Notes under the pieces: generated by a model | Database searches by the model: none | Told to the model about the DNA's origin: nothing | What the model saw: only the letters and a program-made list of their open reading frames with translations | Made by a program: the position numbers and the translations under genes | Origin: Pantoea agglomerans | Lineage (GTDB): Bacteria > Pseudomonadota > Gammaproteobacteria > Enterobacterales > Enterobacteriaceae | Length of the DNA: 64,000 bases | Direction of reading: 5' to 3' | Assembly: GCF_021397715.1 (NCBI RefSeq) | Contig: NZ_CP090207.1 | Coordinates: 310,001-374,000, forward strand | Shown here: piece after piece, positions 40,316 to 42,622 of the stretch | Numbering within the stretch: position 1 is the first letter of the stretch | How the letters are laid out: each line of letters begins with the position of its first letter

Positions 40316-41068
40316 GTGAAAATCTGTTTGGTCGATGAATCAGGCGCCGGAGACGGCGCCTTATCACTTTTGGCGCAGCGCTGGCAGCTGGAGCACGACG
40401 AGAACGCGCTGCTGGCGCTGGTACAGACGCCGACCCATCTTGAGCTGCGTAAGCGCGATGAACCGAAGCTGGGCGGCATCTTTGTCGATTTCGTTTCCGG
40501 TGCGATGGCGCATCGTCGCCGTTTTGGCGGCGGACGTGGCGAAGCCGTGGCGAAAGCGGTCGGCATTAAAGGTGACTATCTGCCCGATGTGGTGGATGCC
40601 ACCGCTGGCCTCGGACGCGATGCCTTTGTTCTGGCGGCGCTGGGCTGTCGGGTGCGGATGCTGGAGCGCCATCCGGTGGTCGCGGCGCTGCTGGATGATG
40701 GCTTACAGCGTGGCTATCAGGATGCGGAGATCGGCGGCTGGTTGCGTCAGCGTCTGACGCTGATTCACGCCGCCAGCGCCCAGGCGCTGAGCGATATCAC
40801 GCCAGCACCGGACGTGGTCTATCTCGATCCGATGTATCCGCATCGTCAGAAAAGCGCCATGGTGAAGAAAGAGATGCGGGTGTTTCAGTCGCTGGTCGGT
40901 GCCGATGAGGATGCTGACGCGCTGCTGGAACCGGCCCGTCGTCTGGCAAAGAAACGTATCGTGGTGAAGCGGCCCGACTATGCGCCGCCGCTGGCAGGGG
41001 TCGTCACTCAGGCGGCGGTGGTCACCAAAAGTCATCGCTTCGATATCTATCCCCCGCTGGTCAGCTGA
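40316..41068 (+). CDS. rsmJ: 16S rRNA (guanine(1516)-N2)-methyltransferase RsmJ
   Basis: A 250-residue SAM-dependent methyltransferase, near-identical in pattern to E. coli RsmJ (YhiQ): [40 protein letters not shown] (SAM motif I), [15 protein letters not shown] and [12 protein letters not shown]. It uses a GTG start at 40316. It modifies G1516 of 16S rRNA. Cotranscribed with prlC. In E. coli dtpB follows; here the next gene is instead a convergent microcin-like peptide. Confidence 0.95.
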
Positions 41069-41142
41069 CCGTAACGGATCTGCGCATCTGGCAAACCGGA
41101 GACCAGCCCTTCCTGTTTAATGCCGGCCGCCGCGCCAACCAG

Positions 41143-41177
41143 AAAAAGCCTGCCTGATGATATCAGGCAGGCTTTTT
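41143..41177. terminator. Bidirectional terminator between rsmJ and the microcin-like gene
   Basis: AGCCTGCCTGAT (41147-41158) pairs perfectly with ATCAGGCAGGCT (41162-41173) around a 3-nt loop, with A5 before and T5 after. It can end both the prlC-rsmJ transcript and the opposing peptide gene. Confidence 0.9.
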
Positions 41178-41237
41178 ATTAGCGTATTTAGCGGGCGATC
41201 AACCTGCCGCAGTAAATACGCAACCGCTTATATTTAA

Positions 41238-41480
41238 TCAGGCGGCTAATTTAGTCAGAAAACCTGAGAAAGCGCTTAAAAAACTTTTCGCTACGCTCAG
41301 GCCAAAGGCTTTATAAGACAGACCAATTTCTTCCTGAATAACGGTTGTTTCATTCAGAGATTTAATTGTGGTGTCGAACAGATCAGAAACCTGAGTTAAT
41401 GCATCATTAACGTTGCCGATAAATTCAGTCAGGCCCGCGCCGCTAACGGCAGCAATTTCAGTCTGGTTGATTTCTCTCAT
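41238..41480 (-). CDS. Class II microcin-like / double-glycine-leader peptide
   Basis: An 80-residue peptide starting MREINQTEIAAVSGA, which follows the leader pattern MRE(I/L)xxxE(L/I/M)xxVSG(G/A) of class II microcins (MccV, MccL), cut after the GA by a peptidase-containing ABC exporter. The predicted mature part (65 residues, G16 to A80) is mildly acidic, has no cysteine and no Gly-zipper, and ends in an amphipathic helix (AFGLSVAKSFLSAFSGFLTK). The ATG at 41480 has an AAGGAT site eight bases upstream. The gene and its flanks are AT-rich compared with neighbours. No immunity or exporter gene is adjacent. It replaces dtpB relative to E. coli. Bacteriocin activity is inferred from the leader only. 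Confidence 0.7.
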   Translation of the reverse strand: MREINQTEIAAVSGAGLTEFIGNVNDALTQVSDLFDTTIKSLNETTVIQEEIGLSYKAFGLSVAKSFLSAFSGFLTKLAA

Positions 41481-41880
41481 AATTAATATCCTTATCTTGT
41501 TGTTAAATTACATTATTGTGCTTCATCAGTCGCCCGGCGACTGAGAGAGCAGAACGAATATAATGAACCCGGCGAACCTTGCCTATAGTAAAATATTGAT
41601 AAATGAAATTGCGGCGTAAAGCGTGAGAGGAACCTTTGCTTGTTAATGTATTGCTAATATAAAGATTATTTTTATAGAGGCTAAATGCGCAATTTTATCG
41701 TGAAAGTGCGAATTATCTGATGTCTGGTAATATCGGTCACGGCGGTGTCAGTTGAACAGGCCCTTTTCCATTGTGGCGAATCGTGCTGACAGGGGAACAT
41801 CAGGAAAGCGCAATGCTGGCGACAGGCGAAGCGGGCTGGCGATATTCACTCACGGGCCGTGCCGGACCCGACGTAACGGG
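41481..41880. other. AT-rich intergenic stretch upstream of the microcin-like gene
   Basis: No gene is supported. On the minus strand it would give the peptide gene a long leader with a tight stem TCAGTCG/CGACTGA (41526-41532 with 41538-41544), 46 bp before the start codon. AT-rich tracts (41590-41720) stand out from the GC-rich neighbourhood and suggest acquired DNA or a strongly regulated promoter. A plus-strand frame from 41752 runs antisense into uspA and is rejected. Confidence 0.4.
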
Positions 41881-41908
41881 AAAAAGCCGGTGATTGTCGC
41901 CGGCTTTA
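41881..41908 (-). terminator. Intrinsic terminator of uspA
   Basis: On the minus strand, AAAGCCGG (41907-41900) pairs with CCGGCTTT (41890-41883) and ends in TTTTT. It starts 11 bp after the uspA stop and separates uspA from the peptide gene, which therefore has its own promoter. Confidence 0.85.
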
Positions 41909-41918
41909 TGATCGGCGG

Positions 41919-42356
41919 TTATTCGTCGTCTTCATCGCGCAGCGGCACAATCAGCATGTCGATGTGCACGGTGTTGATCAACTGACGCGCCGAGGACATC
42001 AGCTTGCTCCAGAAGTCCTGGTGATGACCACATACCACCAGATCGACGTCATACTTTTTAATCGCATCGACCAGTACCTGGCCGAGATCGCCACTGCCGC
42101 TCAGCGTCTCACTGATCGGGTAGCCGGCGGAATCAGACAGACCTTTCAGCGCCGAATGGGTCTCTTCGGAAATACGCTTCTGCATATCGCCAAGGTTGAC
42201 ATCAATCAGGCCGGTATAGAGGTCGGAATAATTCACATCAACGTGGATCAGGGAAATTTTAGCGTCATAAGGGCGGGCCAGCGAAACGGCTTTATCCACC
42301 AGTAACTGACTTTCGGGAGAAAGGTCTACTGCAATCAGGATATGTTTATAAGCCAT
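41919..42356 (-). CDS. uspA: Universal stress protein A
   Basis: A 145-residue UspA-fold protein (144 in E. coli), [20 protein letters not shown] at the start and [20 protein letters not shown] in the second half. Enterobacterial UspA is a cytoplasmic homodimer induced by growth arrest and many stresses; its type does not bind ATP. The AAGGAG site before the ATG is strong. It is divergent from uspB as in E. coli. Confidence 0.96.
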
Positions 42357-42622
42357 GATAAAACTCCTTTCACGAGATTAAGGATGGCATCCGGTGTTCC
42401 TGCCGCGTCACAGCGTAGCGAAATCCTTTGCGCGAACGGGCGATGAGCGCCACCAAAGTGTGTACCTGCGCTGCAGGTGACGATGTTGTTATGTCTCTGA
42501 GTATAGCCTTCTCTGGTGGCAAATGCTGCTGTTGCCGCCTGGCTTGTGAATAAGATCAACGATGCGGCAATTTTACTCGCCCCGAACGAAAAACATCGCT
42601 GGAAAAAATTTAAACATTTCTC

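Follow-up and report, generated by a model that had tools for sequence, protein, structure and literature searches.

A chromosomal Pantoea precursor peptide with a microcin-type leader, a candidate cargo of a C39 exporter encoded on another contig

How might a small peptide gene with a leader of the microcin type serve its cell when no exporter gene lies beside it? The gene in question is an 80-amino-acid open reading frame (ORF) (positions 41238 to 41480, minus strand; opening MREINQTEIAAVSGAGL) in the ORF list of the window, the whole 64,000-nucleotide stretch of DNA analyzed here. It is flanked upstream, on the same strand, by uspA (41919 to 42356) and downstream, on the opposite strand, by rsmJ (40316 to 41068). 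An earlier note on this DNA held that the peptide gene replaces dtpB; this is right only by position relative to E. coli, since dtpB occupies the rsmJ-uspA interval in the E. coli record examined. Its remark that neighboring exporter and immunity genes are missing agrees with the ORF list: no exporter gene adjoins the peptide gene among the listed window ORFs, and no obvious immunity gene candidate stands among the surrounding ORFs of at least 40 amino acids, shorter or more distant ones being possible.

A protein search returned 35 homologues (34 at E values of 3.3e-21 or lower, plus one 48-amino-acid fragment at 3e-14), and among the hits with an organism name all hosts were Pantoea or Erwinia. 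An intact gene is kept between rsmJ and uspA at eight distinct Pantoea loci, Pantoea sp. IMH among these, and degenerate copies occupy the same site in three further genomes (G013 and G042, with the leader present and the remainder divergent; G038, P. septica, with a remnant without the leader). Over seven Pantoea species (orthologues), pN/pS was 0.09 for leader codons 2 to 17 and 0.32 for the core, beside 0.03 for uspA and 0.05 for rsmJ; the gene is under constraint (purifying selection), and its core evolves faster. Because of the 35 homologues, the coding constraint, and the retention between rsmJ and uspA, the ORF is a real gene, beyond chance.

A paralogue (39% identical) lies at C1:49736 in the same genome. 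Genome G049 carries three tandem paralogue-type copies with xylulokinase-gene fragments in between; xylulokinase-gene sequence precedes each copy (G049:C8; L071 2811 to 6520), which suggests amplification by segmental duplication. Searches of plasmid and phage collections with the peptide (tblastn) gave zero matches. Scanning the peptide against Pfam and NCBIfam returned no family above cutoff (one Pfam line at an E value of 0.16 was taken as noise), and Rfam gave four weak lines, none near the gathering score. A wider family scan of 295 genomes, in some of which not all first-look candidates may have been scored, yielded ten weak matches outside the window's genome (E values of 3.7e-5 to 9.0e-4), all of which begin at leader residue 1.

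Several elements around the gene were recognized by reading. A two-way terminator-like hairpin (41143 to 41177) would be common to the peptide gene and rsmJ, and another (41881 to 41908, minus strand; also seen in the alignment) would belong to uspA and set it apart from the peptide gene. The terminators that the earlier note placed on both sides are thus visible by eye as T-run hairpins, but a terminator scan of 41000 to 42450, under its own rules, listed none. A ribosome-binding-like AAGGAT (41488 to 41493, minus strand) is kept in the upstream alignment of eight sequences, barring single changes. The leader transcript, described earlier as structured, has a hairpin in the 5′ untranslated region (41520 to 41550, minus strand) of modest stability (z score, −2.2; 6 of 200 shuffles equally stable), and consensus folding over the eight sequences gave four pairs only. 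A conserved hairpin, suggestive by eye, was set aside, as consensus folding gives it no support.

The predicted leader comprises residues 1 to 15 (41436 to 41480, minus strand) and ends in Gly-Ala, where cleavage would occur. It is almost invariant across the 32 rows of alignment A1 (the window and 31 of the 35 hits; near-identical P0001 and fragments P0006, P0034, and P0035 left out), with I4, E8, I9, V12, and G14-A15 conserved, and VSGAG is present in 35/35 homologues, in keeping with the double-glycine-type leader proposed from the first reading. The conserved hydrophobic and Glu positions of this leader fit C39 docking, and it presumably resembles the leader of MccL. The predicted mature core (residues 16 to 80; 41241 to 41435, minus strand) has 65 residues, a calculated mass of about 6934 Da, and a net charge of −3; as noted earlier, it contains, by reading, no cysteine and no GxxxG (Gly-zipper). 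Its terminal helix, which had been called amphipathic, is moderately so (μH of 0.33 for residues 58 to 75) and is exceeded by the N-terminal part of the core (0.43 to 0.49). The peptide is modeled as a helical hairpin (mean pLDDT, 84), and a PDB structure search with this model gave no match at an E value of 0.001 or better; PDB sequence matches (E values of 0.002 and above) were discarded as apparent coiled-coil noise.

The earlier note had listed a genome without a C39 exporter first among the findings that would refute its reading. One C39-peptidase ABC exporter was found in the genome (five contigs, rated 100% complete), on contig C3 (164,785 bases), and that main objection falls away. The protein (725 amino acids) has C39, membrane, and ATPase domains, and its Cys26, His99, and Asp115 align with the solved transporter PCAT1, placing the catalytic triad. 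TolC-family and HlyD-family genes adjoin the exporter gene. Upstream, on the same strand, lie precursors A (105 amino acids) and B (74 amino acids; both annotated “hypothetical protein” in NZ_CP028351.1), a fimbrial subunit, a chaperone, an usher, a fimbrial adhesin, and a LuxR-type response regulator; a DcrB-family protein follows the exporter genes, and a FidL-like protein together with a winged-helix regulator is encoded divergently. Gaps within the gene run are 113 bases or shorter, and the locus is likely one operon; terminator-like hairpins occur between some of its genes (e.g., L002 1973 to 1997). The assembly of precursors, chaperone-usher fimbria, response regulator, C39 system, and FidL-like/winged-helix pair (G000:C3; L002 770 to 13910) is in large part kept in relatives. 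Since the TolC-HlyD-ABC-DcrB stretch is carried by 28 Pantoea plasmids (26 of P. agglomerans and 2 of P. vagans; 76 to 78% DNA identity), C3 is likely a plasmid. With a conserved leader on one side and an intact-triad exporter in the same genome on the other, the peptide qualifies by sequence as a putative C39 substrate, and on the same grounds secretion in trans through the C3 system is the best-supported reading.

The exporter would serve other precursors too. A leader profile of 17 columns, built in part from exporter-adjacent precursors, gave 11 genomic matches at E values up to 10, of which ten head precursor-like ORFs, the peptide included; seven of these pass a threshold of 0.01, and the other three have E values of 0.03, 0.05, and 0.84. 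The eleventh match (2.6) was set aside. The ten are spread over C1, C2, and C3, and the expectation of further MRE...VSG(G/A) precursors in the genome is thereby borne out. The profile alignment of the peptide family with precursor A is confined to residues 1 to 24; A is Gly-rich, with a core unrelated to that of the peptide, and by sequence comparison the two have the same tag and different cargo.

Tagged precursors were also seen in clusters. Four Gly-rich ones lie between argH and the peroxiredoxin/oxyR region (G000:C1:249259-251807; L119 2760 to 5308), with duplicated argH fragments and argG-like sequence among them. Mixta tenebrionis has five in about 5 kb, scattered among housekeeping genes (L012 2661 to 7351), and after its exporter, 65% identical, come precursors resembling A and B. 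Other genera of the family also have short precursor-like ORFs in which this class of leader heads other cores (L088, L089, L091 to L095, and L097), two or more of them closely spaced in L089, L091, and L097.

Peptide and exporter were then compared over 61 genomes of the genus. The exporter clade (identity of at least 60%, and at least 79% in 11) comprises 15 members, beyond which identity drops to 46% for the next exporter; the peptide family was listed in 13 genomes, and with four partial matches dropped (G008, G013, G038, and G042), nine have an intact member, seven at the rsmJ-uspA site and two (G049 and G057) of the paralogue type only. An intact member is present in 8 of the 15 exporter-clade genomes versus 1 of the 46 others (P = 1.7e-5, kinship not modeled); the remaining 7 clade genomes are without an intact peptide. 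Leader matches go with a C39 gene in 24 of 25 genomes, versus 10 of the 36 other genomes (P = 4e-8, a value favored by the partial origin of the profile in exporter-adjacent precursors and calculated with kinship not modeled). The leader resemblance and these associations might stem solely from common descent within a Pantoea subgroup, with the peptide intracellular or otherwise handled, a reading that we consider improbable. It draws on the lack of a kinship model in the statistics, on the weak association of the intact peptide with any C39 gene (8 of 34 genomes with one versus 1 of 27 without; P = 0.03, kinship not modeled), and on two exceptions, namely, G010 (P. conspicua), where the peptide is intact and a C39 match is lacking, and Pantoea sp. 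IMH, whose sole exporter is distant (41% identical). Against it stand the single C39 gene of the genome, the stronger constraint on the leader than on the core, and the fact that unrelated cores have the leader and an upstream motif in common and little other upstream sequence.

That motif (41585 to 41600, minus strand), a promoter-like ATCAATATTTTACTAT, variant of ATGGNNNNTTTRCTAT, was found in the upstream alignment and in genome motif scans, and its function is putative. A well-conserved block upstream of the peptide gene holds TTTACTAT in six of eight sequences (G019 and G002 are one base off), and this core recurs ahead of other precursors. The pattern was widened to ATSRNNNNTTTRCTAT to include the ATCA variant of the peptide gene; it has eight sites genome-wide, versus one for the backwards control, and five of the eight lie 62 to 131 bases before tagged precursors (the peptide, its paralogue, precursor A, C1:249259, and C1:2072880). 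Requiring ATGG leaves four sites, all before precursors, and drops that of the peptide gene. Precursor A, which heads the exporter locus, carries the motif here and in several other genomes. In this genome, the motif precedes five of seven first-in-line precursors and is absent at C1:251807 and C2:64904. A match within the FidL-like gene near the exporter (G000:C3:27335-27350) is probably due to chance.

Across the 61 genomes, ATSRNNNNTTTACTAT gave 67 hits; it stood upstream of a tagged ORF in 16 of 25 hits in the 15 clade genomes (15 if the subthreshold precursor C1:249259 is excluded), 1 of 3 in G010, and 0 of 39 in the other 45, while its backwards control gave 7, 0, and 44 hits, respectively. 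In the fetched loci, the wide motif occurs at 18 of 69 distinct tagged ORFs versus 0.055 expected (mononucleotide shuffles), a nonindependent count in which many ORFs are mutual orthologues or were used to spot the motif. When the motif was masked, each pairing among the five upstream regions was equaled or outscored by at least 23 of 200 shuffles, and these regions therefore share little besides the motif. TACTAT could be a −10 element; a sigma-70 reading was rejected, the scan listing a single weak promoter-like pair, whose first hexamer (at 41585) begins within the motif, and no pair with TACTAT as the second hexamer. The five tagged precursors with a similar motif are probably switched on together, and the response regulator or the winged-helix protein of the exporter locus may be the regulator. 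Given the lone C39 exporter, the ten precursors, and the distribution of the motif, the peptide seems to belong to a dispersed regulon for peptide export, as one of its cargoes. The earlier term “orphan” is too strong for a peptide that seems to be part of a scattered set of about ten precursors, of which five have a similar promoter-like motif.

On balance, we lean toward a chromosomal precursor whose double-glycine leader is of the microcin type. Cleavage after Gly-Ala and secretion would be the work of the only C39 ABC transporter of the genome, encoded on a different contig that is likely a plasmid; the peptide would be among the cargoes of a probable dispersed regulon and would likely act outside the cell in bacterial competition. 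The gene would be transcribed from a promoter-like element akin to the one ahead of precursor A, which opens the exporter locus, and to those ahead of three other tagged precursors. The leader (I4, E8, I9, V12, and G14-A15) would dock on the C39 domain and then be removed, and the 65-residue acidic, helical core would exit through the ABC-HlyD-TolC channel encoded with the chaperone-usher fimbria. Outside, in the least certain step, it might act as a microcin-like competition peptide with Gly-rich coexported peptides. This role is our first guess, on account of the Gly-rich makeup of precursor A and others and of a core that outpaces its neighbors in evolution; the bacteriocin and the exported signaling peptide of the earlier note are both candidate roles. 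Several observations count against the reading as a whole: the exceptions G010 and Pantoea sp. IMH, the seven clade genomes without an intact peptide, the ATCA form of the peptide gene's own motif, the two first-in-line precursors that lack the motif, and features unlike those of known microcins (no obvious immunity gene, no Cys, no Gly-zipper, and a net charge of −3).

A close second, though a lesser possibility in our judgment, keeps the same export route for a surface or biofilm factor like EbfG of Synechococcus, not a killer, that is secreted with the fimbria and shapes adhesion or communal growth. It ranks so near because the exporter has fimbria genes in its company in 12 of the 14 relatives' loci examined, as in this genome (one of the other two loci ends at a contig edge). 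The lack of an obvious immunity gene beside the peptide gene and its long retention at one chromosomal site fit such a role as well, and the Synechococcus elongatus report (PMC4997328) describes EbfG1 to EbfG4, small proteins bearing a GG/GA motif for secretion, and the C39-type exporter PteB as necessary for biofilm. The likeness is one of description, and the EbfG genes lie near their exporter gene, whereas the Pantoea gene is far from its presumed exporter. The Gly-rich, microcin-like character of coexported precursors such as A and the fast-changing core speak for the competition peptide instead.

The peptide resembles class II microcins of Enterobacterales (PMC9746304 and PMC13174018) in its short precursor, its leader ending in GA (GG or GA in the class), and a genome with a C39 exporter, an HlyD-type adaptor, and a TolC-type channel (nonadjacent here). 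It differs in that the exporter is on another contig, no immunity gene is obvious nearby (ORFs of at least 40 amino acids), the core is acidic, without Cys or a Gly-zipper, and no Pfam or NCBIfam family scores above cutoff; any antibacterial activity is putative. We leave it outside the class, though it appears built for export like a member, because no obvious immunity gene is adjacent and killing is only putative. Precursors A and B of the fimbria-linked locus share its leader class, and A also its promoter-like motif; they differ in their unrelated cores and in lying beside the exporter.

Among the papers found, no title or abstract opening concerned the peptide, the motif, or a fimbria-exporter link, and the supplementary candidate lists of PMC13174018 may include some of the precursors. 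That recent screen of Pantoea, Erwinia, and Xanthomonas kept candidates matching a known-microcin model and prioritized nearby export and immunity genes; a dispersed, motif-wired repertoire could slip past such filters.

More broadly, we tentatively propose a genome-wide export regulon in Pantoea, in which one fimbria-linked, plasmid-borne C39 system and about ten scattered tagged peptides are wired by a shared promoter element, the plasmid being the gate and the chromosome holding much of the arsenal. It yields a testable rule, that leader plus motif predicts the cargo of one exporter. Such a repertoire would account for “orphan” tagged peptides and would link fimbria-based colonization with the secretion of peptides in a genus that counts biocontrol strains among its members.
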